Part shown: piece after piece, positions 1,789 through 51,611 of the stretch
How the letters are laid out: each line of letters starts with the position of its first letter
Position numbering within the stretch: position 1 is the first letter of the stretch
Source of the DNA: Armatimonadota bacterium
GTDB taxonomy: Bacteria; Armatimonadota; HRBIN16
DNA: 64,000 bases
Direction of reading: 5' to 3'
Assembly: GCA_026003195.1 (NCBI GenBank)
Contig: BPGU01000001.1
Coordinates: forward strand, 977,398-1,041,397
Made by a program: the position numbers and the translations under genes
Notes under the pieces: generated by a model
Told to the model about the DNA's origin: nothing
What the model saw: the letters and a program-made list of their open reading frames with translations, nothing else
Database searches by the model: none

Positions 1789-4329
1789 TTACTCGTCTCC
1801 TACCTCCCCAAAGTAGCGTACCAGGATGCTGAAATCGAACAGTGTCACCTCGTTGTCGCCGTCCAGGTCTGCATTGGGGTTCCAGTTCTCGTCGCCGGGC
1901 AAGGAACCAAACGCCTGCACCAGCTGTCCGAAGTCGAAGAGGCTGACTTCGTTATCACCATCGATATCGCCGTTCGTCAGGGCTATTTCTATCCCCGACA
2001 CGCTTCCCGCAGAGGTATCCACCTCTACTGTCCGCCTCAGCCAGTGGGAGGGTTTTGTGGAAAGGGAAAACACTCCGGTTGGCGAGGAAGGCAGGGTAAA
2101 GGAACCATCCGTACCCAGCCAGAGATTGCGAATCTCCGACGCCGCACCTAGCCGCACCTCCATGTCCAGAACAGGGGGTAGCCACCCATCATAATCGCCG
2201 AATAGCACCCCGCCGTTCACCGTCGGAGGAACGAACTCGTCCGCGCCGATGTCCACCCGTTCGCCCACGATGCGAGATTCGCCGTCGATATCCAGCCAGC
2301 CACTGCTCGCAGCACCGTTATCGCCTGCGTTAACACATGGCGAGCCGGGTAGCAGGTGACCGTTGTGTCCTGTAAGCAGGGGGTCTATAGAGATATTGCC
2401 ATTCGTGCCCGTTGGATCAGTGATGCCTTTATAATTGTAAGCGGTGTTGCCGTACACACAGTTGTAACGGAGCGTGGGAGATCCCCCCGACCGGAAGATG
2501 CCCGAAGTATTGAATGCCACGATCGTGTTACTTACCGAAGGCGAGGAGCCATAGGTATAGATACCGCCACCCTGATTGGGTGCTGTGTTGAAGGCGAAGG
2601 TGCAGTTGGTAATGGTAGGGGTGCATTCCCTGTAAATATACATTCCTCCCCCGTACCGTTGAGCGGTATTGTCTACAATCAGGCTGTTCAACACCTGCGG
2701 AGAGGATTGCCATTCGCAGTAAACACCACCGCCGTAGTAGCCCGCGCGGTTGCCCGAGATCATGCTGTATAGCACGACTGGCGAGGAATTGTAGGTATAA
2801 ATACCTGCGCCCGAGTTCCTGGCTGTGTTGTAGCTTATGGCGCAGCGGGTCAATTCAGCAGAGGCGTTATCCAGCAGGTAAACGCCACCACCGTTGTTTT
2901 CGGCGGTGTTGCACGATATGATGCATTCCTGAAGCGATATCGTGCTGTCGGACTTTACCAGGACCCCCGCCCCGTCTCTTACTGCGTAGTTATTGCTGAC
3001 GGTTGATCCAATAACAGTCGGCGATGCATACGTCGTGGCATACAGCCCTGCCCCACTGTCTAAGGTGTGATTGCGGGTGATGAGGCATTGCTCGATGGTT
3101 GGAGCGCTGCCATCCGAACAGATCACCCCACCGCCAACCCGCCATGCGAAGTTGTCTGAGAGGACACAGCGCAGTATGTGAGGGCTACTTTCCCAATAAC
3201 AGCCTACTCCCGCGCCATCTCCTTTCGCGGTGTTGTGCGCGATAGTACAATCCACAATTCGAGGTGCCGCCCCTTGGTTGCACAAAATACCCCCGCCGTA
3301 CCAGGCTGTGTTGTGGGCGATGGTGCACATTTCAATCACCTTGTGCCCTCCAGGCAGGATATAAAAACCGCCACCCCAGTTGCTGGCTTCGTTGTGTATG
3401 ATATCGCAACCGGTGACGGTTATTGTGCTTACCACCGCTAATGCCGCACCGGCTCTCGCGGTATTGCGAGTGAAAAGACAGCTAGTCACCTCTCCTGCGT
3501 CGCCGGCGAAGTACAAGCCGCCTCCATACTCGCTAGCCTCGTTCGCAATGAATCGACAGCGCGAGAAAGTAGCAATGGTATACAGGTAGACATAAGCGCC
3601 CGCGCCTCTTCGGCCGATGTTCGCGGAGATTTCGCAGTCCTCCACTTTGCCTTTTCGATGCAGAAGTATCCCTCCCGAGTTTTGGGTGATAATGCAGTGT
3701 CGTACAGTGACATCGCCTGAAGAGTGCACCCCTCCGACGAAACCGGAGTTGCCAACTATCACGCAGTGTGAGATATAGACAGTGCTACCTTCAGCCACGT
3801 ACACTCCTCCGCCTCTATCCGCTACGTTGTTGGCGATGGTGCAATTGGAGATGTGTACCTCAGGAGCTTCGCAGAGGATTCCGCCGCCGTACGCGCCGAC
3901 CGGTCCCTCGACCTTTCCGTGACAAACGGTCAGTCCATCTATGATTACAGAGGGACTGGCGGTGGGTGGAACCGTCATCACCCTCCCAGACTGCATCCCG
4001 TCCAGCACGGTCTCGTAAGGGTCGGGTTGGGGGCGGGGGAAGGGCGGGCGTTCGTCCACCGAAGTTTCCGTGCCCATGAAGCCGCCGTACAGCTTCAAAC
4101 CACCTTTCATCACGATATTCTCATAGTATGTTCCAGCCGCTACCCAGATTTCGTCGCCGAAGGAGGCAGCCTCTATCGCCGCACCCACCGTGCGCTTTGC
4201 CTCTGCCCAGCTGAGACCGCTATTCGTGTCATCGCCTTGTGGGGTCACGTACAGGATACGAGCGAACGCGGTTGTGGTCAGGAGGAACATGACGGTAAGG
4301 ATAGTCAGGATGCATACAGAACGTGGCAT
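1789..4329 (-). CDS. Secreted right-handed parallel beta-helix protein with C-terminal dockerin-like repeats
   Basis: Secreted protein of about 846 residues. ATG at 4329 is chosen because GGAAAGGAGAG precedes it and a clean signal peptide follows (positive start, then ILTILTVMFLLTTTAFA). Residues ~25-90 carry the YVTPQGDDTNSGLSWAEA and DEIWVAAGTYYENI motifs that open many pectate-lyase-like beta-helices. About 20 beta-helix coils follow, each with a GGG(I/V)Y or GAGIY step and NNTA or NTA turns. The C-terminus holds two Ca-binding, dockerin-like units (DGDNEVSLFDF and DGDNEVTLFDF, about 35 residues apart) preceded by a beta-sandwich-like linker. Expected to bind or cleave a polysaccharide outside the cell or be anchored at the surface; no catalytic residues could be assigned. 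A promoter lies upstream at 4368-4396. Confidence 0.85.
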   Translation of the reverse strand: MPRSVCILTILTVMFLLTTTAFARILYVTPQGDDTNSGLSWAEAKRTVGAAIEAASFGDEIWVAAGTYYENIVMKGGLKLYGGFMGTETSVDERPPFPRPQPDPYETVLDGMQSGRVMTVPPTASPSVIIDGLTVCHGKVEGPVGAYGGGILCEAPEVHISNCTIANNVADRGGGVYVAEGSTVYISHCVIVGNSGFVGGVHSSGDVTVRHCIITQNSGGILLHRKGKVEDCEISANIGRRGAGAYVYLYTIATFSRCRFIANEASEYGGGLYFAGDAGEVTSCLFTRNTARAGAALAVVSTITVTGCDIIHNEASNWGGGFYILPGGHKVIEMCTIAHNTAWYGGGILCNQGAAPRIVDCTIAHNTAKGDGAGVGCYWESSPHILRCVLSDNFAWRVGGGVICSDGSAPTIEQCLITRNHTLDSGAGLYATTYASPTVIGSTVSNNYAVRDGAGVLVKSDSTISLQECIISCNTAENNGGGVYLLDNASAELTRCAISYNTARNSGAGIYTYNSSPVVLYSMISGNRAGYYGGGVYCEWQSSPQVLNSLIVDNTAQRYGGGMYIYRECTPTITNCTFAFNTAPNQGGGIYTYGSSPSVSNTIVAFNTSGIFRSGGSPTLRYNCVYGNTAYNYKGITDPTGTNGNISIDPLLTGHNGHLLPGSPCVNAGDNGAASSGWLDIDGESRIVGERVDIGADEFVPPTVNGGVLFGDYDGWLPPVLDMEVRLGAASEIRNLWLGTDGSFTLPSSPTGVFSLSTKPSHWLRRTVEVDTSAGSVSGIEIALTNGDIDGDNEVSLFDFGQLVQAFGSLPGDENWNPNADLDGDNEVTLFDFSILVRYFGEVGDE

Positions 4330-4367
4330 CGTCTTCTCTCCTTTCCGAGTGATGTGCACCACCCTGA

Positions 4368-4396: not shown

Positions 4397-4457
4397 CAGG
4401 AGATAGCCATGCTCAGGGTGTATTACTGCTGTGAGACGTGGGAAAGGAGGGGCAGCG

Positions 4458-5435
4458 GTGGCAGAGGTTGTCTGTCTTGGTGAAGCACTCATCGACATGG
4501 TTGCGCAACAGAAAGGGGTCACCATCGCGGAAGCAAAGGGTTTTTCGCCTGCTCCAGGCGGCGCGCCGGCAAACGTCGCGGTTGGCGTAGCCAAGCTGGG
4601 CGTGCGCAGCGCGTTTCTGGGCAAGGTGGGGGCAGACCCTTTTGGTTACCTGTTGAGAGATACCCTCTACGGGTATGGGGTAGATGTAGGAGGTATGCGT
4701 TTTGACGAGAATGCGCGCACCGCACTGGCGTTTGTTTCGCTGACGAAAGAAGGCGTGCCCGATTTCATCTTTTATCGCAACCCCAGTGCGGACATGTTAT
4801 ATGAGCCGGGAGATGTGGACACACACCGCCTGCGCCGTGCGAAGGTTTTCCACTTCGGTTCCATCTCTCTGCTGGACGAGCCGGTGCGCAGCGCGACACT
4901 GTTTGCCCTGCAGATTGCACGTGAGAGTGGCGCGTTGATTTCGTATGACCCCAATATGCGTCCCGCGCTCTGGCGCAGTGAGGAAGAGGGTAAACAGCAG
5001 ATGGAAGCAGGTATGCGCTTTGCCGATGTGGTGAAACTGAACGAGACCGAGCTGCAGTTCCTCACTGGCGTCCGTACGCCAGAGGTAGGTGTCACTCATC
5101 TTTTCGCCCTCTTTCCGCAGCTGGTGCTGGTTGCGGTGACGTTGGGAGAAAAGGGTTGTTACTATGCGACGCCCCATCGGAGCGGTGCAGTGTCCGGGAT
5201 ACCTGTGGAGGTCGTGGAAACGGTTGGCTGTGGGGATGCGTTTGTGGCGGCGATGCTGGTGCAGTTGCGCAAGAGGGCGAAGGGGCGCGAAGGGGTGCGC
5301 AACCTGAGCGACTCGGAGCTGCAGCGCACCTTTCTGTATGCAAATGCTGCTGGAGCCATTACCGCTACCCGCCCCGGTGCCATACCGGCTTTACCGACGG
5401 ATACGGAAGTGGCAGAGATGTTGCAGAAAGTGTAA
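4458..5435 (+). CDS. PfkB-family carbohydrate kinase (fructokinase/ribokinase type)
   Basis: ATP-dependent sugar kinase of the ribokinase/PfkB family, 325 residues. It starts with VVCLGEALIDM and carries the family signature GGAPANVAVGVAKLG at about residues 35-50 and the C-terminal active-site motif VGCGDAFVAAML with the catalytic Asp. The overall pattern is closest to fructokinases, but the substrate is inferred. GTG at 4458 is chosen because GGAAAGGAGG (4441-4450) sits 7 bases upstream. The next gene, pfkA, starts 13 bases after the stop with its own AAAGGAGGTC site, so the two form an operon feeding glycolysis. Confidence 0.88.
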   Translation: MAEVVCLGEALIDMVAQQKGVTIAEAKGFSPAPGGAPANVAVGVAKLGVRSAFLGKVGADPFGYLLRDTLYGYGVDVGGMRFDENARTALAFVSLTKEGVPDFIFYRNPSADMLYEPGDVDTHRLRRAKVFHFGSISLLDEPVRSATLFALQIARESGALISYDPNMRPALWRSEEEGKQQMEAGMRFADVVKLNETELQFLTGVRTPEVGVTHLFALFPQLVLVAVTLGEKGCYYATPHRSGAVSGIPVEVVETVGCGDAFVAAMLVQLRKRAKGREGVRNLSDSELQRTFLYANAAGAITATRPGAIPALPTDTEVAEMLQKV

Positions 5436-5448
5436 AAGGAGGTCAGGT

Positions 5449-6411
5449 ATGAAGCGTATTGGCGTTCTCACCAGCGGGGGCGATGCGTCGGGGATGAACC
5501 CTGCCCTGCGTGCGGTGGTGCGAACAGCGATTGTCAACGGGTTAGAAGTGGTGGGCATCGAGCGTGGGTATGAAGGGTTGCTAAACCGCTGGCTGCGCCC
5601 GATGGACCTGTCTTCTGTGGGAGGTATCATCAATCGCGGCGGCACGATTCTGCGCACCGCACGCAGTGAGCGGTTCAAGACCGAAGAGGGGCTACAGCTG
5701 GCAACCCAGGTGCTACGCGAGAACGGCATCGAAGGGCTGGTGGTCATCGGTGGTGACGGCTCCTTCAGGGGGGCGGTCAAGCTGGAGGAGGTTTCAGGAA
5801 TCGCGGTGGTGGGCATCCCCGCCACCATCGATAACGACATCGGCGGCACGGAGTACACGCTGGGCTACGATACCGCGTTGCAGGTGGCGATGGACGCCAT
5901 TGACAAAATCCGCGACACTGCAGACAGTTTCGAGCGCATCTTCGTGATTGAGGTGATGGGGCGTTCGCGCGGGTTCATTGCGGCGGCAGTGGGGCTGGCT
6001 GGTGGTGCGGAAGCCATTCTAGTGCCCGAGATACCCTTTGACCCCGTTCAGATTTGCGAGCGGCTCAAGCAAGGCATGGCTCGCGGCAAACGCTCCGCCA
6101 TTATCGTCACTGCAGAAGGCGCGGCGAAGGCGCAAGAGGTTGCTACCTTTGTGGAGATGTATCTGCGCGAGGAGGTGCGTGCTACCGTGCTGGGCTACAC
6201 CCAGCGTGGCGGTTCGCCCACTGCAACCGATCGCATCTACGGCGCACGATTCGGTGCGCTGGCGGTGGAGTTGCTCTTGCAGGGGCAAAGCGGCATGATG
6301 ACTGCTGTGCAGGGTGGTCAGGTGGTGGCGGTGCCTTTAAGGGCATGCTGGGAACAACCGCGCGTGCTGGATGAGAGCCTGCTGAAGCTGAACGAGGTGC
6401 TGGCGTCTTAG
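5449..6411 (+). CDS. pfkA: ATP-dependent 6-phosphofructokinase
   Basis: Phosphorylates fructose 6-phosphate to fructose 1,6-bisphosphate, the committed step of glycolysis. At 320 residues it has the normal bacterial PfkA length. Motifs run in order: LTSGGDASGMNPALR (ATP site), VVIGGDGSFRGA, PATIDNDIGGTEYTLGYDTA (catalytic Asp) and EVMGRSRGFIAA (substrate site). The GGDGS form, rather than GGDDT/S, is what ATP-dependent enzymes carry, as opposed to pyrophosphate-dependent ones. ATG at 5449 has AAAGGAGGTCAGGT upstream; an in-frame upstream extension lacks homology and would overlap the kinase gene. The ATPase cassette downstream begins 50 bases after the stop. Confidence 0.95.
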   Translation: MKRIGVLTSGGDASGMNPALRAVVRTAIVNGLEVVGIERGYEGLLNRWLRPMDLSSVGGIINRGGTILRTARSERFKTEEGLQLATQVLRENGIEGLVVIGGDGSFRGAVKLEEVSGIAVVGIPATIDNDIGGTEYTLGYDTALQVAMDAIDKIRDTADSFERIFVIEVMGRSRGFIAAAVGLAGGAEAILVPEIPFDPVQICERLKQGMARGKRSAIIVTAEGAAKAQEVATFVEMYLREEVRATVLGYTQRGGSPTATDRIYGARFGALAVELLLQGQSGMMTAVQGGQVVAVPLRACWEQPRVLDESLLKLNEVLAS

Positions 6412-6461: not shown

Positions 6462-7706
6462 ATGATTTCGTTGATCGAGGCAAAGTCATACAGATGTCTG
6501 CGCTATATTCGGCAGCCTCTGGGGAACTTCCAGATTCTCGTGGGACCAAACGCGAGCGGCAAGAGCACCTTCCTGGATGTTGTAGCGTTTCTCGGTGACT
6601 TACTGCGATTTGGGGTAGAGGAGACGGTGCGCAGGCGCGCACGCACTCTCAGTGAGCTGATTTGGCAGGGACAGGGTAACAACCTAGAGGTAGCCATCGA
6701 GCTGAATTTGCCACAGGCAGTGGGCGAATACTCTGTTGCTCGATACGAGGTGCGCGTCGGCACGGGTGAACAGGGCGGTGTGGATCTAGAGGTCGAGAAT
6801 CTGTGGCTCGTTCGAAACGGTGTACGTGACAAGTATGCACGGGCTCGCCAAACCTTGTTGTTCCCACGTGAAGTGGAGGTTCCTGCCACGATTGTCGTCG
6901 AGCCGGGGAAGCACACACCTGTTGGCTATCGGAAAGTGGTGTCTCGTACTGCCGAGGGAAGGGTGTATATACGTTCTGAGACAACGGACTGGAACTTTTC
7001 CTTGCGTCCCGCGCGTGGGCGTGCTGGTTTGACGCTAGTGCCAGAGGAAGAGGACCGGTTTGGAGCCGCAACCTGGGCTCGCAAGGTGCTGTTAGAAGGT
7101 ATCCAAATGCTCACGTTGAATAGTCAGCTCATGCGTTTGCCGTGTGCACCCGATGTGCCCAGCACCTTTCAACCGGATGGTTCTAATCTGCCCGTTGTGG
7201 TCGGCATGTTGCGTCGCGAACATGGCGATCGCTTCGCGAGCTGGGTGGAACATGTACAAACTGTTTTTCCTGAAATTGTAACTGTTGAGGAAAGAGAGCG
7301 AGAAGAAGACCGCTACCGTTATCTGCTGGTAGGGTTGAGGACAGGTATCCAATTGCCTTCGTGGACGCTTTCGGACGGCACCTTGCGCTTTCTGGCTCTG
7401 ACGTTGTTACCCTATCTCTCGGAGCCTTCAGGTGTCTATCTCGTTGAGGAGCCGGAAAACGGCATCCATCCTCGCGCTATTGAAGCAGTGTACCAGTCCC
7501 TGTCTTCCGTCTATACAGGACAGGTATTGTGCGCCACGCATTCACCCATACTTCTGAATATGGCGAGGCTTGAGGATCTCCTCTGTTTCGCCAGAACGGA
7601 GAGTGGTGCTACCGACATTGCGAGAGGTGATGAACATCCTCGTCTCAAAGAATGGCGCCAAGAAGTCAGCCTTGGTGACCTGCTCGCCAGCGGAGTTCTT
7701 GGATGA
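6462..7706 (+). CDS. AAA-family ATPase (RloA/OLD-like), first gene of a probable defence cassette
   Basis: SMC-like AAA ATPase of 414 residues. The N-terminus starts ISLIEAKSYRCLRYI, the beta-strand opening of AAA_15/AAA_21 proteins, then Walker A GPNASGKST at residues ~28-36. The C-terminal half holds LVEEPENGIHP (Walker B) near residue 327 and CATHSPILLN (His switch) near 355. No TOPRIM domain follows in the same chain, unlike OLD proteins. The gene overlaps the next by ATGA, so the two are translationally coupled. AGGAAGG lies upstream of the ATG. Two-gene ATPase plus TOPRIM-like modules (RloAB, PARIS and similar) are known anti-phage systems; a defence role here is inference from that architecture. 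Confidence 0.85.
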   Translation: MISLIEAKSYRCLRYIRQPLGNFQILVGPNASGKSTFLDVVAFLGDLLRFGVEETVRRRARTLSELIWQGQGNNLEVAIELNLPQAVGEYSVARYEVRVGTGEQGGVDLEVENLWLVRNGVRDKYARARQTLLFPREVEVPATIVVEPGKHTPVGYRKVVSRTAEGRVYIRSETTDWNFSLRPARGRAGLTLVPEEEDRFGAATWARKVLLEGIQMLTLNSQLMRLPCAPDVPSTFQPDGSNLPVVVGMLRREHGDRFASWVEHVQTVFPEIVTVEEREREEDRYRYLLVGLRTGIQLPSWTLSDGTLRFLALTLLPYLSEPSGVYLVEEPENGIHPRAIEAVYQSLSSVYTGQVLCATHSPILLNMARLEDLLCFARTESGATDIARGDEHPRLKEWRQEVSLGDLLASGVLG

Positions 7707-8320
7707 AAGACCTTGTGCTGCTTGTGGCAGATAAGGATATGGAGATGACTGTTCACGGTTTGTTATCGCGCCCGCGCGCACTTGGTATACGAACGGTGGA
7801 GTATGATGTCTTCACTCACCCAAGACATGATCCGGGTGTGCGCACGGAAGCAGCGGATTTCCTGCGTGCTTATCAATCCGAATACGCACGCGCAGTGGTG
7901 CTGTTCGACAGGATAGGATGTGGAGCAGAAGAACTATCTGCAGAAGAGCTGGAGGAGGTAGTGCGCGATAGCGTCCAGAAAACAGGATGGCACCAACGGT
8001 GCGAAGTTGTTGTCATTGACCCGGAGCTGGAGGTGTGGCTGTTTACATTGTCACCACATGTCTACCAGGTGCTGGCGCGCGGTGATACGAACTATTTTCA
8101 TGTGGTGGTATCCAGCTATCCCACTACCGCGGCTGGGAAACCGGAACGCCCTAAAGAGGCTATGGAAAAACTTCTACGCGGCAAGAGCATCCCGCGTTCT
8201 TCTGCACTATACCGCAAGTTAGCACAAACGGTAGGGCTGTCCCGCTGTACAGACCGCGCATTCAACCACTTCCGTAACACACTACGAGGATGGTTTGGAG
8301 TAGAGGAGGAACAGGCGTAA
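7703..8320 (+). CDS. RloB/DUF4276-like TOPRIM-fold protein, partner of the ATPase
   Basis: Protein of 205 residues, not firmly recognised by family. It has the spacing of a TOPRIM-like fold: a first strand LVLLVADKDMEMTV with an acidic cluster, then AVVLFDRIGCG at about residues 64-74 where DxD is expected, then VVVIDPELEVWLF at about residues 101-113, which resembles the NPxFExWL motif of RloB. The DxD position is altered to DRIG, so a metal-dependent nuclease activity is uncertain. Positively charged residues crowd the C-terminus (RAFNHFRNTLRGW). It overlaps the ATPase gene by 4 bases, which argues for an obligate pair. It could instead be a component of a larger methylation-associated defence system that has been reduced here. 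Confidence 0.6.
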   Translation: MKDLVLLVADKDMEMTVHGLLSRPRALGIRTVEYDVFTHPRHDPGVRTEAADFLRAYQSEYARAVVLFDRIGCGAEELSAEELEEVVRDSVQKTGWHQRCEVVVIDPELEVWLFTLSPHVYQVLARGDTNYFHVVVSSYPTTAAGKPERPKEAMEKLLRGKSIPRSSALYRKLAQTVGLSRCTDRAFNHFRNTLRGWFGVEEEQA

Positions 8321-9253
8321 ATGATCCTCACCGTGACCCTCAACCCTTCCGTAGACCGCCTCATCTACGTCAAGCAGCTGGTGCCTCACGACACCAACCG
8401 CATCCTGCGCATCGAGGAGGACGCCGGTGGCAAGGGGGTGAATGTGGCTCGGGTGCTGAGGCGACTGGGCGTGCCTGTGGTCGCCACCGGTTTTCTGGGA
8501 GGCAGGGCAGGGCGGTATGTGCAGCGTGAGCTGAGCGAGATAGACGGCGTGGAGTGCCGGTTCGTCCGGGTGCAGGGCGATACGCGCACCAACCTCGCCA
8601 TTCAGGAGGAGGACGGTTCTCCTCCTACCACACTCAATGAGCGCGGACCGCAGATTTCTGCGCAGGAACTCGATGCCCTGCTGCAGATTGTGGAGGAGCT
8701 TTCGCGGAACGCACAGTTTGTCGCGCTGGGGGGTAGCCTGCCGCCGGGCGTGCCCTCCGACATCTACGCCACGCTGGGCGAGATCGCCGCACGTCACGGG
8801 GCGAAGGTGGTGCTGGACGCCGACGGGGAGCCCCTCTTATTGGGATTGAAGGCATCCCCTTTCCTCATTAAGCCGAACGAGAACGAGACCGAACGCCTGC
8901 TGGGCAGGGCGATAAATACCCTGGAAGACGCGGCAAGGGCGGCTCAGGAGTTGCACGGCAGTGGCGTGCCGATGGTGATTGTCTCCATCGGCGAGAAGGG
9001 AGCGGCGATTGCCAGTGCCGAGGGGTGCTGGGTGGCGATTCCGCCCAGAATACGCGCCATCAGCACCGTTGGCTCCGGCGATTCGATGATCGCAGGTGTG
9101 CTCAGCGTGCTGGTTCGTGGCGGCACGGTAGAGGAGGCGATTCGCTGGGGCACCGCCGCAGGGGCGGCGACCGCTATGACCGACGGCTCGGATATCGGCA
9201 CGGCGGAGCAGATACATAATCTTCTCTCGCAGGTGGAGGTGAGGCAGTGGTAG
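8321..9253 (+). CDS. 1-phosphofructokinase-family (FruK/LacC-like) hexose-phosphate kinase
   Basis: PfkB-superfamily kinase of 310 residues, expected to phosphorylate fructose 1-phosphate, tagatose 6-phosphate or fructose 6-phosphate. The opening MILTVTLNPSVDRLIYV and GGKGVNVARVLRRLG are diagnostic of the FruK/LacC/PfkB subfamily, and TVGSGDSMIAGVL near residue 245 carries the catalytic Asp. The start codon directly follows the stop of the defence cassette (TAAATG) with GAGGAGGAAC upstream. No PTS fructose genes are adjacent, so a role as a second phosphofructokinase is as likely as fructose 1-phosphate use. The cassette between this gene and pfkA separates what would otherwise be a compact glycolytic cluster. 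Confidence 0.88.
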   Translation: MILTVTLNPSVDRLIYVKQLVPHDTNRILRIEEDAGGKGVNVARVLRRLGVPVVATGFLGGRAGRYVQRELSEIDGVECRFVRVQGDTRTNLAIQEEDGSPPTTLNERGPQISAQELDALLQIVEELSRNAQFVALGGSLPPGVPSDIYATLGEIAARHGAKVVLDADGEPLLLGLKASPFLIKPNENETERLLGRAINTLEDAARAAQELHGSGVPMVIVSIGEKGAAIASAEGCWVAIPPRIRAISTVGSGDSMIAGVLSVLVRGGTVEEAIRWGTAAGAATAMTDGSDIGTAEQIHNLLSQVEVRQW

Positions 9254-9270
9254 GCGATGGGGGGAGGTGC

Positions 9271-9942
9271 ATGCGTAAACTGAACGTCGCCATCGCGGCG
9301 TGCGAGAAATGTCCCCGTCTGGCGGAGTACATCCGGCAGGTAGCGCAGACCAAACGCCGCGCCTACCGCGACTGGGAGTACTGGGGTAAACCTGTACCCA
9401 ACTTCGGCGACCCTGAGGCGAAAATTCTGGTGGTAGGACTGGCTCCCGCCGCGCACGGAGGTAATCGCACGGGGCGCATCTTCACCGGCGATGAGAGCGG
9501 AAACTGGCTCTTCCGGGCGCTGTACGAGGTGGGTTTAGCCAATCAGCCGGAGAGCGTTCACCGCGAAGATGGGCTGGAGCTACGAGAGGCGCTGATCACC
9601 GCCGTATGCCACTGCGCCCCGCCTGCCAATAAGCCCACTCGCGAGGAGTTGCAGAACTGCCAGCACTGGATGAAGGCAACGCTACGTTGCGTGGAGGATT
9701 GGAAGGTCATCGTGGCGTTGGGAAGGGTAGCCTTCGAGTGGACGCTCCGCGCGCTGAAAGGGATTGGGGTGGAACACTCTGTCAAAGCGTCCGCGTTCGC
9801 GCACGGGGCGGAGTTTGCCCTGCCCGATGGACGATGGATAGTGTGCAGTTACCATCCCAGCCAGCAGAATACCTTCACCGGCAAGCTGACGCGCGAGATG
9901 TTGCGCTCTGTATTCGAACGCGCTGTGCAGCTGGCAGACTAG
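9271..9942 (+). CDS. Family 5 uracil-DNA glycosylase (UdgB-like)
   Basis: DNA repair enzyme that excises uracil and some other deaminated bases. It resembles Thermus UdgB across its length: CEKCPRL near the start, then YWGKPVPNFGDPEAKI, GLAPAAHGGNRTGRIFTGD, CHCAPPANKPT, and the C-terminal SYHPSQQNTFTGKLT. The Cys residues near the N-terminus and around CHCAPP and NCQHW fit the [4Fe-4S] cluster ligands of the family. ATG at 9271 is chosen because the UdgB N-terminus begins there; GGGGAGG is only 3 bases upstream, and a GTG at 9247 is an alternative. It follows the kinase gene with 17 bases between. Family 5 enzymes are common in thermophiles, in keeping with heat-driven cytosine deamination. 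Confidence 0.92.
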   Translation: MRKLNVAIAACEKCPRLAEYIRQVAQTKRRAYRDWEYWGKPVPNFGDPEAKILVVGLAPAAHGGNRTGRIFTGDESGNWLFRALYEVGLANQPESVHREDGLELREALITAVCHCAPPANKPTREELQNCQHWMKATLRCVEDWKVIVALGRVAFEWTLRALKGIGVEHSVKASAFAHGAEFALPDGRWIVCSYHPSQQNTFTGKLTREMLRSVFERAVQLAD

Positions 9943-10045: not shown

Positions 10046-10750
10046 CTATTCGGGTTCGATGCCCAGTTCGCGCAGCTTCGCTGCCAAACGCTCTGCCCGA
10101 GCTTCTGCTTCTCTTGCCCTATACTCCGCTTCGGTCCACCGCGCCTCCACTTCTCTTGCCCTCTGTTCTGCCTGCGTCCATCGCGCCTCCAGCTCTTCAG
10201 GGGTTACAAAAGGTAAACCATCGGGGCGAGTGAGCACCGGATCACCGTTTTGCACGCTGAAGCGGATGCCCAGACGCGGGCTGACCCATCCCTCCATCTG
10301 CTCTATCGGGTGCAATGTGCCGTCTTCACCTCGTATCCAGCCGTCCAGCCGACCGGTATCGGGGTCGTACACACAGTACTCCTCCACCCCAAAACGCTGG
10401 TAGAAGAGGAACTTTTCTATCAGTTCGCTCAGGCGGTTGCCTGGCGAGAGCACCTCAAAAACCACTTGCGGCGCGATGCCGCCCTCTTCCCACTGCTTGT
10501 AGGAGGGACGATCGCCCTTTGGTCTGCCGAAAACGACCATCACATCGGGGGTGGTGCGTGTCTTATTGTCGCCTTCCACGGGGTACCATAACAGGTCGCC
10601 CGCGACGAAGACGTTAGGGTCATCCTTGAACAGGCTGGCGATACCGGTGTAGATGGTTCATATCCAGCGGAACTGTTTGGTATTGTCAGCTGTGGGTTTG
10701 CCGTCGCTTTCTGGATAGGTAACCTCTTGCCTGGGTTGTACCGCGCTCAT
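10046..10750 (-). pseudogene. Uma2-family (DUF820, PD-(D/E)XK-like) gene broken by an in-frame TGA
   Basis: Uma2 proteins are restriction-endonuclease-fold proteins that are multicopy in cyanobacteria and relatives; their role is uncertain. Reading from ATG at 10750 (GGGAGGGG upstream) gives MSAVQPRQEVTYPESDGKP up to QFRWI, then TGA at 10660-10658, and then the same frame continues with family-typical DPNVFVAGDLLWYPVEGDNK, PDVMVVFGRPKGDR, PQVVFEVLSPGNR and YCVYDP. Only one codon separates it from an intact gene. The tail has a coiled-coil of RAREAEAR-type repeats ending ELGIEPE. The 5' end is next to a remnant of another gene. Recent inactivation, a base-call error or readthrough are all possible. 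Confidence 0.8.
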
Positions 10751-35144: not shown

Positions 35145-37457
35145 ATGCAACGAATAGACCTGAACGGCGAATGGCTGTTGAGCTACCGACCACAGCAACA
35201 CAAATATGTAAATTTTCAAGATATAGACTTAAACACAATGTGCACAGTACCTGCGCTCGTGCCGGGTAACGTGGAGCTGGACCTGATACGGGCTGGCGTC
35301 TTACCGGAGTTGTCTGTGGGCAACAACATCTACCGCCTGCGCGAGTATGAGACTTGCGAATGGTGGTATCGCAGAAGGTTTACCGCGCCTGCCCTCCCCG
35401 ATGGACATACCGCCGAGCTGGTGTTCGAGGGGCTGGATTGCCTTGCCGAAGTGTGGTTGAACGGCACACTCATTGGTGAAGCCGCGAACATGCTGATTCC
35501 ACACCGCTTTGACGTGACGAGCACGCTCAAGGCTGGCGACAACGAGCTGGTGGTCCGGATACGCTCGGCGGTGTTGGAAGGACGGGAGCGCACGCCTGCC
35601 CCCGTTGAAAGCACGTTGCCCTGCGGCTACGAGTCGTTAGGAGTGCGCAAAGCACCTCACGGCTACGGATGGGACATCATGCCGCGTGTGGTCAGCGCAG
35701 GTATCTGGCGCGACGTGTATGTGCAGTTTGTACCGTCCACGCGCTGGCGGAGCGTTTACTGGGCGACCACTTCGGTAGACCCCGCGCGTCGCTCGGCGGT
35801 GCTGTTCGTAGACTGGGACTTTACCAGCACGGAGCACACCATCGATGACTGGCAAGTGCGCCTGCGTCTCTCTCGTGATGGGCAGGTGGCACACGAAAGC
35901 CTGCATCCCGTCTTCCATACACACGGTCGGGCGTGGATACACGTTCAGGGGGTAGAGCTGTGGTATCCGCGCGGTTACGGCGAACCGGTGCTGTATGAGG
36001 CAAGCGCAGAACTGCTGGACGGACAGGGCAACGTGCTGGATACGCATCAGTGCCGCGTCGGCATCCGCAAGGTGGAGCTGCGCCGTACAGACATCACTAC
36101 GCCTGAAGAGCCTGGCGAGTTCGTTTTCTTGGTGAACGGCGTGAAGGTGTTTGCGAAGGGCACGAATTGGGTTCCGCTGGACGCCTTCCACAGTCGCGAC
36201 ATCCAGCACCTGAAACCGACTTTCGAGATGCTGGTAGACCTGAACTGCAACATGGTGCGCTGCTGGGGAGGGAATGTGTATGAGTCGGATGCCTTCTTCG
36301 ACCTGTGCGACGAGCACGGGGTGATGGTGTGGCAGGACTTCGCGCTCGCGTGCGCCATTTACCCGGACGAAATCATTCCCGCACTGCGGACGGAGGCGCA
36401 GGAGGTGGTGCAGCGTCTGCGTAACCATCCCAGCCTGGTGCTCTGGTGCGGTAATAACGAGATCGATCACACCTACCTGTGGGCGGGGATGGGCATCGAC
36501 CCCAACACCGACAAGATAAGCAGGCAGGTGCTGGCAGAGGTGGTGAGGCAGTTAGACCCCTTCCGACCGTATCTACCCAGTTCGCCTTACATGAGTGAGG
36601 AGGCGATACGCCGAGGTGGCGACCCCAATCTGTCGCCGGAGCAACATCTGTGGGGACCCCGTGACGATTTTAAGGGACCCACCTACACCCGTTCGCTGGC
36701 GCACTTTGTGAGTGAAATCGGCTACCATGGATGTCCTCATCGCCACACGCTGGAACAGATGATGGAACCCGAGTACCTGTGGCCGTGGCAGGACAATGAG
36801 CAGTGGCTGACACATGCCACACGCCCGCTGCCCCGCATGACCGATTTCAACTACCGCATCCCGCTGATGGCAAAGCAGATCGCGGTGCTCTTTGATACCG
36901 TGCCCGACAATCTGGATGATTTCATCCTGGCTTCGCAAATCAGCCAGGCGGAGGCGCTGAAGTTCTTTATCGAACGGTGGCGGCAGCGCAAGTGGCGCAC
37001 GACGGGCATTCTCTGGTGGAACCTGCGTGACGGCTGGCCCATCATCTCGGACGCTATTGTGGATTACTACTACCGCAAGAAGCTCGCCTATGTCTACGTG
37101 AAGAGGGTGCAAACTGATGTGTGCGCCATGCTGAGCGAACCGGAGGAGGGAATGCACACGCTGATTGTGGTGAACGATACATTGCATCCAGCAGAAGGAG
37201 AGGTGGAGTTAGTAGATGCGGAGAGCGGCAGGCAGTTGCTGGCTTCGGCGTATCACATCGAGCCCAACAGCAAAGCCATCGCTGGCGCTGTCCCACAGGT
37301 GCAAGAGCCCGCTCTCTGGCTCATTCGCTGGCGGGACGGGGAGGGGAGTGAGTACCTGAACCATTACCTGGCAGGTAACCGCCCCTACAGTTTGCAACGG
37401 TACCGCGAATGGCTGCACTTTCTGGAGATACCGCATGACTTCACCACAGGCTCATAG
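35145..37457 (+). CDS. GH2-family beta-mannosidase-like enzyme
   Basis: Glycosidase of 770 residues without a signal peptide. It starts with DLNGEWLLSYRP. The jelly-roll has WWYRRRFTAP and LVFEGLDCLAEVWLNG. The barrel has MVRCWGGNVYESDAFFDLCD, then LVLWCGNNEIDH (acid/base Glu) and FVSEIGYHGCP (candidate nucleophile Glu), then GILWWNLRDGWPIISDAIVD. The motif order is that of GH2 mannosidases. Absence of a signal peptide suggests it trims imported oligosaccharides in the cytoplasm, after the exported GH2 enzyme acts outside. AAGGAGGAGAAC precedes the ATG. The pair is one operon. No terminator was seen between it and the CsoR-like gene, where an operator and promoter begin. Confidence 0.88.
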   Translation: MQRIDLNGEWLLSYRPQQHKYVNFQDIDLNTMCTVPALVPGNVELDLIRAGVLPELSVGNNIYRLREYETCEWWYRRRFTAPALPDGHTAELVFEGLDCLAEVWLNGTLIGEAANMLIPHRFDVTSTLKAGDNELVVRIRSAVLEGRERTPAPVESTLPCGYESLGVRKAPHGYGWDIMPRVVSAGIWRDVYVQFVPSTRWRSVYWATTSVDPARRSAVLFVDWDFTSTEHTIDDWQVRLRLSRDGQVAHESLHPVFHTHGRAWIHVQGVELWYPRGYGEPVLYEASAELLDGQGNVLDTHQCRVGIRKVELRRTDITTPEEPGEFVFLVNGVKVFAKGTNWVPLDAFHSRDIQHLKPTFEMLVDLNCNMVRCWGGNVYESDAFFDLCDEHGVMVWQDFALACAIYPDEIIPALRTEAQEVVQRLRNHPSLVLWCGNNEIDHTYLWAGMGIDPNTDKISRQVLAEVVRQLDPFRPYLPSSPYMSEEAIRRGGDPNLSPEQHLWGPRDDFKGPTYTRSLAHFVSEIGYHGCPHRHTLEQMMEPEYLWPWQDNEQWLTHATRPLPRMTDFNYRIPLMAKQIAVLFDTVPDNLDDFILASQISQAEALKFFIERWRQRKWRTTGILWWNLRDGWPIISDAIVDYYYRKKLAYVYVKRVQTDVCAMLSEPEEGMHTLIVVNDTLHPAEGEVELVDAESGRQLLASAYHIEPNSKAIAGAVPQVQEPALWLIRWRDGEGSEYLNHYLAGNRPYSLQRYREWLHFLEIPHDFTTGS

Positions 37458-48079: not shown

Positions 48080-49783
48080 CTACCTGCGCTTGTCCACTAC
48101 ATTGGATTGATTGTTATAGACATTATTGTTCTGCAGCCCTACCCGAGCTGTTGACTCAATGTAAACACCCGTCTGGTTACTTCTGCAGGTATTATCTGCC
48201 AATGCTGCTTCTACTTGATCGAATATGACGATGCCTGTCCAGCTGTTCCCCTCACACAGATTGTTCTTCGCCACGAGCTTTGCAGCGTTGTGCGCGCAAA
48301 TGCCATGCTGCGCGTTATTTTTGCAGGTATTATCTGCCAATGCTGCTTCTACTTGACCGAATAGGGCGATGCCTGCCCAGCTGTTCCCCTCACACAGATT
48401 GTTCTTCGCCACGAGCTTTGCAGCCTTGTCCGCGTAAATGCCATTCTTCGCGTTATTTTTGCAGGTGCTGTTCTCTATCACTGCAATAGAGTTCCCCCAC
48501 AAGGCGATACCATCAGAACGGTTTCCCACGAAGTGGCTGTTTTTCAGTGTCACCTGGGCGTAGTCGTCTGTTGCGATACCATCCTGCGCATTTTCCTGGC
48601 ATGTGGTATTCAACAGGGTTGCAGAGCCGTCTTGGAGGATATAAATGCCATTTACTCCGTTTTGTTGAATAACGGTGTCTTTGATGCTCACCTGTGCTCT
48701 TTCGCCCACTAAGATTCCAATACCAGAGTTTTTTTCTACGATACAGCTGTCCAATGTCACTGAGGCTGTGTTCCGGAACCAAGCTCCAATGCCTCCCTTA
48801 AAACGGCAGCGGTAGAAATTTGCTTGTCCTTGCAAAACAATCACAGCGGCGGATTTGTCTTCGTTACCAATGTACTCGAAAGAGACATCAGAGACCATCA
48901 CCTTTGTGTTTGCCATGAAGCCAATAACCCACTGTTTGCTCGATGATACTATTCGTGTCTTGTCTGGTCCAGCCCCGCGCAAAATGAGAGGTTGGACGAC
49001 CCAGAGAGGTTCGTCCAGGTAATAAGTACCCTCTGACAGCTCTATCTCCAGCAGATCTGAAAATGAGCTCTTGCCTAATATCGCGGATAGGTTATCTCGA
49101 GGTGTGACAGTTACTCGCTTTCTCTGGCTCTGCGAGGGGGCAGATTGTGGAATAGCCGTCAAAATCATAGCCATCATAAGGTGTTCGCTGGACACCGCCA
49201 TGTTGAGGTTCTGCCCATTCTGGATGTACTGTGTTGCTACACCAATGACCTTACCAGCTGCATTGAGCACTGGGGACCCGCTGCTGCCCGGTGAGATGGG
49301 GGCAGTAATTTGCACAACTCTCCTGCCCTCAAACTCTCGTAGCGCGCTGACAACCCCCGTACTCACAGTGCCCTCCAAGCTCATTGGGGAACCGATGACG
49401 CACACAGGTTCACCAGGCTTGAGATTGATCGATAAGGTAGTCTCCAGCACTGCAGGTGGGGTAGCACCGGTATCTAGCAGAGCCAGATCCCAGTTCGAAT
49501 CAGCGAACAAGACAGATTTGACGTTGTAGATTCTTCCATTGTGTGCACGCACCCTGATGGAACGCATCCCTTTGATGACGTGATAGTTGGTCACCACCCA
49601 CCCTTTGGTGTGGATGAAGAAGCCTGTGCCAGAGACTTTCTCTTCGGAGTTCTCCGCCAATACCGTTACGACAGCGGGCAAAGTTTTCTCCGCTACCCGG
49701 CTCCAGTCTACCGTGCTTTGCGCCAGTGCCGTGACTGCAAGGGTAGTGAGTGTGAAAACCAGTGACAGACGCACTATAGTCAT
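48080..49783 (-). CDS. Trypsin-like serine protease with C-terminal beta-helix repeats, secreted
   Basis: Secreted protein of 567 residues. ATG at 49783 follows GGAGG by 7 bases and begins a signal peptide (LSLVFTLTTLAVTALAQS). Residues ~20-200 form an HtrA/DegP-like protease domain: GFFIHTKGWVVTNYHVIKGM (His), SNWDLALLDTG (Asp) and SPGSSGSPVLNAAGKVIGVA (Ser), so the triad is intact. No PDZ domain follows. Residues ~235-565 form a right-handed beta-helix of about 22-23 residue coils (NNAKNGIYAD, GNSWAGIALFG). Two 46-residue units are nearly identical at DNA level. The protein may use the helix to bind polysaccharide or protein substrates. Confidence 0.88.
   Translation of the reverse strand: MTIVRLSLVFTLTTLAVTALAQSTVDWSRVAEKTLPAVVTVLAENSEEKVSGTGFFIHTKGWVVTNYHVIKGMRSIRVRAHNGRIYNVKSVLFADSNWDLALLDTGATPPAVLETTLSINLKPGEPVCVIGSPMSLEGTVSTGVVSALREFEGRRVVQITAPISPGSSGSPVLNAAGKVIGVATQYIQNGQNLNMAVSSEHLMMAMILTAIPQSAPSQSQRKRVTVTPRDNLSAILGKSSFSDLLEIELSEGTYYLDEPLWVVQPLILRGAGPDKTRIVSSSKQWVIGFMANTKVMVSDVSFEYIGNEDKSAAVIVLQGQANFYRCRFKGGIGAWFRNTASVTLDSCIVEKNSGIGILVGERAQVSIKDTVIQQNGVNGIYILQDGSATLLNTTCQENAQDGIATDDYAQVTLKNSHFVGNRSDGIALWGNSIAVIENSTCKNNAKNGIYADKAAKLVAKNNLCEGNSWAGIALFGQVEAALADNTCKNNAQHGICAHNAAKLVAKNNLCEGNSWTGIVIFDQVEAALADNTCRSNQTGVYIESTARVGLQNNNVYNNQSNVVDKRR
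48185..48460 (-). repeat. Two tandem 138-bp repeats inside the beta-helix
   Basis: The segments 48185-48322 and 48323-48460 differ at only a few positions and encode 46 residues each, containing KLVAKNNLCEGNSW and DNTC. Such near-identity indicates recent duplication. The unit is two beta-helix coils. Confidence 0.85.
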
Positions 49784-49916
49784 TTGGTCGCCTCCATCTA
49801 GTAGTCTACACAGAAATTGTTGGCACAGGAAGGACACCTTTTTACTGGCAAGTGTACGAGAAACTGTGTTTTGCTGCAAGGGTTCGGGATATAGTTCCGA
49901 TAATATGACAGGGGTG

Positions 49917-51611
49917 ATGAAGTTGAAGATACGAGAGATCGCTATTCACAACTACCGCTCTATTGAGGAAGCAGCTATCCGAACGGGCGACTATTCCTTG
50001 CTGATTGGACAGAATAACTCCGGTAAGAGCAACGTGATGGATGCTATGCGCACCTTTTATGAGAAGGACATCAAGTTTGAGTACGAGCGTGACTTTCCGA
50101 AGTTCTCCACAGCGGATCAGGAAAGCTGGGTAGAGATAGAGTACGAATTGTCAGAAGAGGAAGCTCACACAGTCAGTCCGGAGTATCTCATGAAGGATTG
50201 CTGTGTTCGTCTGCGAAAGTGGTTTCATCCGCCCGACAAAGCAAAGCGGGGTGTCGTAGCCTACGAACACGGCAAGCTATCCAATAACTTGTTCTACGGG
50301 TGGAAGAGTGTTGCTCAGGGTAAGATGGGCAACGTCATCTATATTCCCGCCGCCAGCCGATTGGAAGATCACACAAAGTTTACAGGTCCGAGTGCACTGC
50401 GTGACCTTGTTGTAGATATTTTGACTTCCGTTCTTGCATCGAGCGATGCTTTCCACGAGCTCAGGGGAGCGTTCTCGTGTTTCAGTCAGAAAATAAAGGA
50501 AGAAGTGACCCCTGACCAGCGATCGATATCCCAGCTAGAAAGTCGTATCAACGCGGAGATTGAGGATTGGGGTGTTCGGTTCACTCTGGATGTGACTTTT
50601 CCTGATGAAGGAGACATTGTCCGCAACCTGCTTCGCCATGCGCTAAGGGACAGTGATTTAGCAGTAGAGATGAGCCCAGAGGCGTTCGGGCATGGGCTAC
50701 AAAGACATTTGATTTTTACCCTGATTCGTGTCGCAGCATCCTACTCCACCAGGTTACAGTCCTTGAGGCAAAAAGGCGGATTTTCACCGGACCTGGACCT
50801 ACTTCTGTTTGAAGAGCCGGAAGCCTTTTTGCATCCTCCTCAGCAAGACGCTCTGGATACAAGCCTGCGACAACTTGCCGCAAGACAAAACTGTCAAGTC
50901 ATCGCAGTAACCCATTCCCCACTGTTTGTCAGCTGCAACACAGATGACCTGGTTAACCTCATTCGCGTGCGCAGGGACTCTGGAAAAACGAGGGTAGCCC
51001 AGGTAAGTAAGGCACAGCTACAGCAAATCTTTGAGGACAATCAACGTATTCGCGAGGTATTGTCATCCTCCGACAAAGGAAATGGAGAGAGTATAGAACT
51101 GGAGGCGGTACGACATTTTCTCTGGCTCAACCCCGAACGTAGTAGTATGTTTTTTGCAAACTACGTGTTGATTGTGGAGGGGTTGAGCGAGCAGGTTCTC
51201 ATTAACCACTTTATCAAAACGGGTAAACTGCCTGGTGGCAAGGGGCTATTCGTGTTGAATGCTGAAGGCAAGTACAACATTCATCGGTTTATGAATCTTC
51301 TGGGGGCTTTAGGCATCGCACATGCGGTTTTACACGACGAAGACAGCGGTAGTAAACAGCATGAGTGCTTGAACAAGTTGATCCGAGAGACGAAGAACGA
51401 GTTCACCAGGGCTATCGACACGTTCCGAACTAACCTGGAAGATTTCCTCGGCTATTGCGCTGATAACGAGCGGTGGAAGAAAGCTGCACAGATTTTCGCC
51501 GCAGTATTGCGCAATCAGATCAGCGAGGATCGAATAGATGCCTTCATCGACAAGGTAAGAGCACTGGTAAAACAACCGGATTGTTGCGAGAGTCCATTAT
51601 GTAATTCGTAG
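49917..51611 (+). CDS. OLD-family ATP-dependent endonuclease with TOPRIM domain
   Basis: ATPase-nuclease of about 564 residues. The N-terminal ATPase has KIREIAIHNYRSIEEAAI, Walker A LLIGQNNSGKSN at residues ~27-38, then DLLLFEEPEAFLHPPQ (signature and Walker B) and VIAVTHSPLF (His switch). The C-terminal TOPRIM domain carries YVLIVEGLSEQVLIN (acidic Glu) and AVLHDEDSGSK (DxD). OLD proteins defend against phage (P2 Old; Gabija GajA is a relative). No UvrD-like gajB partner is next door, so this is a class 1, stand-alone type. ATG at 49917 is chosen; ATG at 49905 also fits. Transcribed divergently from the protease gene. Confidence 0.92.
   Translation: MKLKIREIAIHNYRSIEEAAIRTGDYSLLIGQNNSGKSNVMDAMRTFYEKDIKFEYERDFPKFSTADQESWVEIEYELSEEEAHTVSPEYLMKDCCVRLRKWFHPPDKAKRGVVAYEHGKLSNNLFYGWKSVAQGKMGNVIYIPAASRLEDHTKFTGPSALRDLVVDILTSVLASSDAFHELRGAFSCFSQKIKEEVTPDQRSISQLESRINAEIEDWGVRFTLDVTFPDEGDIVRNLLRHALRDSDLAVEMSPEAFGHGLQRHLIFTLIRVAASYSTRLQSLRQKGGFSPDLDLLLFEEPEAFLHPPQQDALDTSLRQLAARQNCQVIAVTHSPLFVSCNTDDLVNLIRVRRDSGKTRVAQVSKAQLQQIFEDNQRIREVLSSSDKGNGESIELEAVRHFLWLNPERSSMFFANYVLIVEGLSEQVLINHFIKTGKLPGGKGLFVLNAEGKYNIHRFMNLLGALGIAHAVLHDEDSGSKQHECLNKLIRETKNEFTRAIDTFRTNLEDFLGYCADNERWKKAAQIFAAVLRNQISEDRIDAFIDKVRALVKQPDCCESPLCNS

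Follow-up and report, generated by a model that had tools for sequence, protein, structure and literature searches.

MADS, the methylation-associated defence system reportedly described by Maestri et al. 2024, lends its name to the two protein families considered here, MAD3 and MAD4. The joining of an ABC ATPase to a Toprim nuclease is a recurring anti-phage design, for which one account names OLD, Gabija, retrons, AbiL, MADS and PARIS, and in PARIS the ATPase AriA releases AriB, which then cuts tRNA (PMC12409363). The split, two-protein form is spoken of in a review as a proposed OLD class 4 (PMC10568477), and according to a 2026 survey Toprim-linked OLD-ABC dyads are widespread in the vicinity of BREX and are probable backup effectors (PMC12839542). 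In OLD (B. pseudomallei numbering), the ligands of metal A are E400, D455 and D457 and those of metal B are E404, T506 and E508, with assistance from K562; in P2 OLD, single mutations of the metal-A Asp residues abolished activity in vivo (PMC7049728).

An ATPase/Toprim pair between pfkA and fruK

The window, by which we mean the whole 64,000-nucleotide stretch of Armatimonadota DNA that was analysed, carries on its forward strand a PfkB-type kinase, PfkA, an ATPase, a 205-aa protein, FruK and a uracil-DNA glycosylase-family protein, in this order:

4431-5435 (+): PfkB-family sugar kinase, upstream flank (PF00294, 207 bits), a neighbour conserved in the genus
5449-6411 (+): pfkA, ATP-dependent 6-phosphofructokinase, immediate upstream flank (TIGR02482, PFKA_ATP, 385 bits, cut-off 371)
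6462-7706 (+): MAD3-family OLD-type ABC ATPase, 414 aa (NF047739)
6543-6569 (+): Walker A, GPNASGKST, residues 28-36; G28, N30, S32, G33 and K34 invariant in 70 rows
7446-7463 (+): Walker B region, EEPENG, residues 329-334; E329, E330, P331, E332 and N333 invariant in 70 rows
7539-7544 (+): H-loop, HS, residues 360-361; invariant in 70 rows
7703-7706 (+): ATGA, overlap of the MAD3 stop with the MAD4 start, read from the sequence
7703-8320 (+): MAD4-family Toprim protein, 205 aa (NF047734)
8321-9253 (+): fruK, 1-phosphofructokinase (TIGR03828, pfkB, 334.6 bits, cut-off 292)
9247-9942 (+): uracil-DNA glycosylase-family protein

The reading frames, coordinates, GPNASGKST, ELEVWL and DRIG motifs and 4-base overlap given in the initial annotation were all reproduced, and its description of a pair wedged into a sugar-kinase operon, with PfkA upstream and FruK downstream, was borne out by the family cut-offs. 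The MAD3 gene starts 50 bases after pfkA, and the MAD4 stop is followed by the fruK start after 0 bases (TAAATG). No promoter-like or terminator-like site stood above chance in the region of the pair, and an Rfam search of the window returned no family. A defence island around the pair was considered and rejected: 2 of the 10 other window proteins scanned matched PADLOC, neither adjoining the pair, and the direct neighbours are kinases and the uracil-DNA glycosylase-family protein, with no defence gene found beside the pair.

The ATPase passed the NCBIfam MAD3 model NF047739 (467.3 bits over residues 1-413, cut-off 420), fell into AAA_21 and AAA_15 in Pfam, and in PADLOC scored best with HEC-01A (154 bits), ahead of mad3 (113 bits) and the AriA profile (95.5 bits). 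Its Walker A, Walker B and H-loop are intact. The AlphaFold2 model of MAD3 (pLDDT 93.3) found its best structural matches in SMC and Rad50 heads (Z up to 19.8), PtuA (Z 18.8) and OLD (Z 17.8), the last being T. scotoductus OLD 6p74 (rmsd 4.1, 252 aligned).

The 205-aa protein, of which the genome holds a single copy, passed the MAD4 model NF047734 (205.5 bits over residues 2-198, cut-off 160), and mad4 was its only PADLOC match (39.6 bits, residues 2-113). The pair had been called RloAB-like in the initial annotation, which named RloB, DUF4276 and DUF4435 as families for comparison. A relationship of MAD4 to RloB was rejected, with no Pfam match and an hhalign probability of 0.3%, and both proteins instead pass the MAD3 and MAD4 cut-offs; DUF4435 (PF14491) likewise gave no match at E <= 1. 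DUF4276 (PF14103) fared better: the protein itself scored 18.7 bits (E 0.0022), below the Pfam cut-off of 30.2, while the comparison of profiles aligned the two families end to end over 192 columns with a probability of 95.9% (E 5e-9), and 16 of the 79 MAD4 members matched PF14103 at E <= 0.01. In another genome of the phylum (L182, 858-2108, minus strand), an OLD-like ABC ATPase adjoins a DUF4276 gene in a similar two-gene layout.

A search of the PDB by sequence gave no match with the single protein and only E >= 0.35 with the profile. The AlphaFold2 model of MAD4 was built on 79 MAD4 rows (pLDDT 93.9). Foldseek returned 1228 PDB matches at E <= 10 and 0 at E <= 0.001, and the structural ranking is that of VIA-align 2 on the Foldseek candidates, so that the match to OLD depends on this second aligner. 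In that ranking the best match was the C-terminal Toprim region of OLD, 6nk8 (Z 10.6, rmsd 4.5, 180 aligned), and OLD C-terminal regions took ranks 1-3 and 5 (Z 8.9-10.6, 174-180 of 205 residues; 6njv 9.5, 6njw 9.4, 6njx 8.9). The top six also included P. horikoshii PH0156 (2p62, Z 9.3) and, at rank 6, T. scotoductus OLD 6p74 (Z 8.3, rmsd 4.8, 139 aligned), followed by unrelated rows, Piwi and lumazine synthase, at Z ~8 and lower; T7 primase and one small Toprim protein ranked lower still. Solved AriB structures were absent from the 50 rows of this comparison, which bears neither for nor against a likeness. By its best matches, MAD4 is predicted to adopt an OLD-type Toprim fold. Because the MAD4 model matches the OLD Toprim and its profile aligns with DUF4276, the pair can be read as a split OLD-type ATPase/Toprim system.

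Several other proteins of the window are recorded here in their own right. A single-chain OLD-family nuclease lies at 49587-51611 on the plus strand (AAA_15/AAA_21 and OLD-like_TOPRIM, PF20469; PADLOC Old, 192 bits), its reading frame as listed starting with TTG and its matched part beginning near residue 113; the window thus holds two ATPase/Toprim systems, one split and one single-chain, separated by about 41 kb. A Uma2-family putative restriction endonuclease is encoded at 10046-10579 on the minus strand (PF05685, 61.9 bits). The 770-aa protein at 35145-37457 on the plus strand matched the PADLOC profile of a CARF/beta-galactosidase/LolE fusion at 115.6 bits, over profile positions 104-660 of 1791 only. 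At 1789-4362 on the minus strand lies a right-handed beta-helix protein (PF13229) whose C-terminus looks dockerin-repeat-like by eye (DxDGDNEV twice).

The putative MAD4 active site

The residues of MAD4 were matched to those of OLD by sequence order and spacing, not by superposition, and yield four putative counterparts:

7730-7744 (+): D10...E14, counterpart of OLD E400/E404, both pairs four residues apart
7907-7918 (+): D69-R70-I71-G72, counterpart of the OLD DxD (D455/D457), with I71 replacing the second acidic residue
8021-8038 (+): PELEVW with E108 and E110, counterpart of OLD T506/E508, within PELEVWL at residues 107-113
8153-8155 (+): K151, candidate counterpart of OLD K562/R487, assigned by order only

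Across the 79 rows, D69 and K151 are kept in all, D10 in 78, and position 14 is acidic in 59. P107, E108, E110 and W112 do not vary among the 18 rows that came from the profile search; the invariance of E108 and E110 in the 79-row set is not independent, since the motif belonged to the search pattern. Position 71 is more variable, with Glu in 56 rows, Asp in 5 and another residue in 18, namely I, V, H, K, Q, T or R in the window protein and 17 relatives. The MAD4 of a sister species (G002) reads DREG at this site, and that of a genuine MADS reads DCDW.

The initial annotation had noted DRIG where RloB-type proteins carry DxD and proposed a distinct Toprim variant. The residue at the second DxD position is indeed unusual, but a separate Toprim class is not borne out, as 18 of 79 rows are non-acidic there. 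From the alignment, DRIG is a true departure at a predicted metal-ligand position, one common to about a quarter of the rows and falling short of proof of inactivity. Because position 71 is non-acidic in 18 of 79 rows, DRIG lies within the natural variation of the family; because Ile occupies a predicted metal-A position and the P2 OLD mutants lost activity, the window MAD4 might be weak or inactive.

This raises the reading that MAD4 is catalytically dead or weakened by Ile71 and that the pair persists for sensing or regulation, or as a relic in decay. Several points speak for such a loss: 61 of 79 rows have an acidic residue at position 71, this position corresponds to OLD D457, and the genuine MADS protein holds Asp there. 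The rows without an acidic residue nevertheless belong to a family in which D69, K151 and nearly every D10 are preserved, and in the window both reading frames are intact and the remaining residues that are invariant in the family are retained. We regard a dead or weakened MAD4 as unlikely.

Distribution of the pair across phyla and within the genus

A scan of one genome per species gave 219 MAD4 relatives, of which the best 80 were kept; their phyla include Acidobacteriota, Chloroflexota, Planctomycetota, Verrucomicrobiota, Thermodesulfobacteriota, Bacillota, Myxococcota and Pseudomonadota. With 20 loci from the phylum and 3 from the genus these make 103 loci, a number in which three records occur in duplicate and one genome enters twice, once for each half. 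Both genes lie on one strand in 97 of the 103 loci, and 68 of these 97 pairs share the 4-base overlap. Since both proteins pass curated cut-offs and 97 of 103 loci hold both genes, the pairing lies far beyond chance. In the phylum, 24 of 291 genomes carry MAD4. Besides the pair itself, the commonest neighbour cluster, found at 8 of the 80 loci, is a related ATPase, and Hma-like and other systems stand beside the pair at a few loci; no neighbour gene common to the relatives elsewhere was seen. An apparent MAD3-MAD4 fusion (L160) was rejected as a frameshift artefact, the end of MAD3 being out of frame.

Searches of mobile elements bear on whether the module is toxin-antitoxin-like or directed against plasmids, not phages. 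Pfam describes AAA_21 as a putative AbiEii toxin, and Toprim/ATPase modules such as Wadjet JetD are reported to act on plasmids elsewhere (PMC10568477). Among 72,556 plasmid records a single one held a MAD4 relative, located within a full MADS, so plasmids in that collection do not ordinarily carry the pair as a maintenance gene; as an argument against the toxin-antitoxin or anti-plasmid reading this count is a weak point, and we hold that reading to be quite improbable. Phage records contained no MAD4 relative, and none of the 164 pattern stretches in viral contigs was one.

Within the genus, MAD4 is carried by 3 of 10 genomes, always at the pfkA-fruK junction, with the pair of one carrier (G008) divided between two contig ends. 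The junction is empty in 6 of the 9 sister genomes: pfkA and fruK overlap by ATGA in two (G006, G001) and lie 20-169 bases apart in the other four. In the remaining sister (G005), pfkA was not beside fruK in the stretch examined. The tight TAAATG junction, which the initial annotation had thought unusual, therefore loses its distinction, the empty operon being equally tight in G006 and G001. Searches for cassette remnants in four empty junctions (G009, G007, G003, G004) gave matches no better than a reversed-sequence control, and thus no sign of an earlier loss. The motif GGCGT occurs at 6402-6406, in the end of pfkA, and at 8314-8318, in the end of MAD4, near both edges of the insert; it is probably due to chance, because G002 shows no such motif at the end of its MAD4.

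The history of the three copies can be read in several ways. In the flank tree the window genome is sister to an empty genome (G006, support 97/97) and the three carriers are rejected as a clade (p-AU 0.0005); an earlier flank tree with long outgroups had lower resolution and likewise rejected the clade (p-AU 0.002). The MAD tree groups the three genus copies (support 79/92), which an early quick tree had left unresolved, and a FastTree run placed an Acidobacteriota copy (L085) nearest to the window copy. Between the window genome and G002 or G008, the flank proteins are 85-86% identical, MAD3 62-65% and MAD4 50-58%. GC3 of the MAD genes is below that of the flanks in all three carriers, with the largest gap in the window genome (52-56 for the MAD genes versus 63-78 across the four flanks). 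The low GC3 and the scattered occurrence agree with an accessory defence module that is gained and lost. A single gain followed by several clean losses is also possible, because the MAD tree weakly groups the three copies; the pattern might reflect losses in several lineages, another insertion into this junction or exchange via the conserved flanks.

These data also address the reading that the pair serves glycolysis in a metabolic or housekeeping role. Such a role would suit a pair that is co-directional with the kinases, closely spaced on both sides and set among no promoter-like or terminator-like sites above chance. Six of nine sister genomes nevertheless have pfkA and fruK without it, its GC3 departs from that of the flanks, and relatives elsewhere share no neighbour with it; we consider the link to glycolysis very unlikely. 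The initial annotation had held that presence of the cassette at the same place in all relatives, together with a housekeeping family for the small protein, would tell against a defence role; the cassette is missing from most sisters, and the family that the small protein matches, MAD4, is one of defence.

As a control for MADS, taken here as a MAD1-MAD8 locus that includes a DNA methyltransferase, we used a genuine locus on a Piscinibacter plasmid, whose MAD1-MAD7 all exceeded the NCBIfam cut-offs and whose MAD8 is partial. Its MAD3 and MAD4 each matched 100 of the 103 loci, whereas MAD2, MAD5, MAD7 and the partial MAD8 matched 0 of 103 and MAD6 gave three weak, partial matches. The 80 loci are the nearest relatives of the window MAD4, so that true, more distant MADS copies are under-sampled, and many contigs are short. 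The PADLOC mad1 and mad2 profiles proved too general to serve as tests and were set aside, each matching 14 of 14 control genomes. In the window, tblastn from the Piscinibacter locus detected no MAD2 and no MAD5-MAD8; a genome-wide search for mad2, mad5 and mad7 gave 0 matches for mad5 and for mad7, and mad2 gave matches to its generic SAM-binding core only. Among 48 carrier genomes searched, mad7 was matched in 6, none of them one of the three genus carriers. The pair is thus not MADS, because only 2 of the 8 MADS genes are found and MAD2, MAD5, MAD7 and MAD8 match 0 of 103 loci, and the idea that it is a remnant or trans-acting part of a full MADS in this genome, suggested by the MADS names of both genes in NCBIfam, is already largely refuted by the same searches and is extremely improbable.

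MAD3-MAD4 is a stand-alone module present in many phyla. In the literature on MADS, Toprim, DUF4276, RloB and HEC-01 we found no description of the stand-alone pair, by which we do not claim its absence from print. The equivalog models NF047739 and NF047734 accept pairs lacking other MADS genes, the window pair at 6462-8320 being one. Because they accept such pairs alone, annotation may assign MADS components to genomes that lack the system; automatically assigned MADS labels can overstate the occurrence of that system, since the sampled relatives have the pair without methylation genes beside it.

Proposed function and comparison with known systems

We think it likely that these two genes form a split OLD-type module that acts on its own against phages, and by analogy it probably works like PARIS. 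The two-gene ATPase/Toprim architecture proposed in the initial annotation stands, and the anti-phage role attached to it is probable on the same analogy. MAD3 would form an ATP-dependent complex that holds MAD4 in check while monitoring for a sign of phage infection; once this is sensed, MAD4 would be set free or activated to act as a two-metal nuclease. Its substrate might be host tRNA, as for AriB of PARIS, or DNA, as for OLD, and the cleavage would halt phage growth while sacrificing the cell. By inserting precisely between pfkA and fruK, the pair would have gained the transcription of the operon while breaking no gene. A bolder version, which we advance tentatively as possible but doubtful, is that the pair is an independent, widespread two-gene defence, older and commoner than MADS, which later recruited it as its ATPase/Toprim core, that it entered the pfkA-fruK junction repeatedly, and that its reduced metal-A site works. 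The pair is a small, tractable unit in which the function of the ATPase/Toprim part of MADS can be considered alone, and it bears on whether nuclease activity of a Toprim protein requires the second acidic residue of DxD.

Among the systems to which the pair has been or might be compared, RloAB has an RloB (PF13707) partner, a family that the window MAD4 does not match in Pfam. DUF4276 is a distant relative by profile comparison, though MAD4 stays under its Pfam cut-off. Of the PADLOC profiles, HEC-01A scores highest with the ATPase, whereas MAD4 matches no HEC-01 model, HEC-01B included. Gabija combines a single-chain GajA with the helicase GajB; here the pair is split and the next gene is fruK. 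PARIS likewise consists of two genes, for an OLD-type ABC ATPase and a Toprim nuclease, and the window MAD3 matches its AriA profile, but MAD4 has neither an AriB match in PADLOC nor a DUF4435 match in Pfam. The Piscinibacter MADS shares the gene order and the same 4-base overlap (MAD3 ends at 11983 and MAD4 starts at 11980), but the window MAD3 and MAD4 are 34% and 33% identical to that locus, DRIG stands in place of DCDW, and none of the other six MADS genes lies beside the pair. OLD differs in being one chain, whereas the window pair, like related pairs, is two proteins, and in its active-site residues, MAD4 having Asp for the first Glu of OLD and Ile for the second Asp of DxD; the two share the ABC ATPase and Toprim folds, and the predicted catalytic residues of MAD4 follow the same order. 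The pair is an OLD-ABC/Toprim dyad of the MAD3-MAD4 branch, outside MADS.
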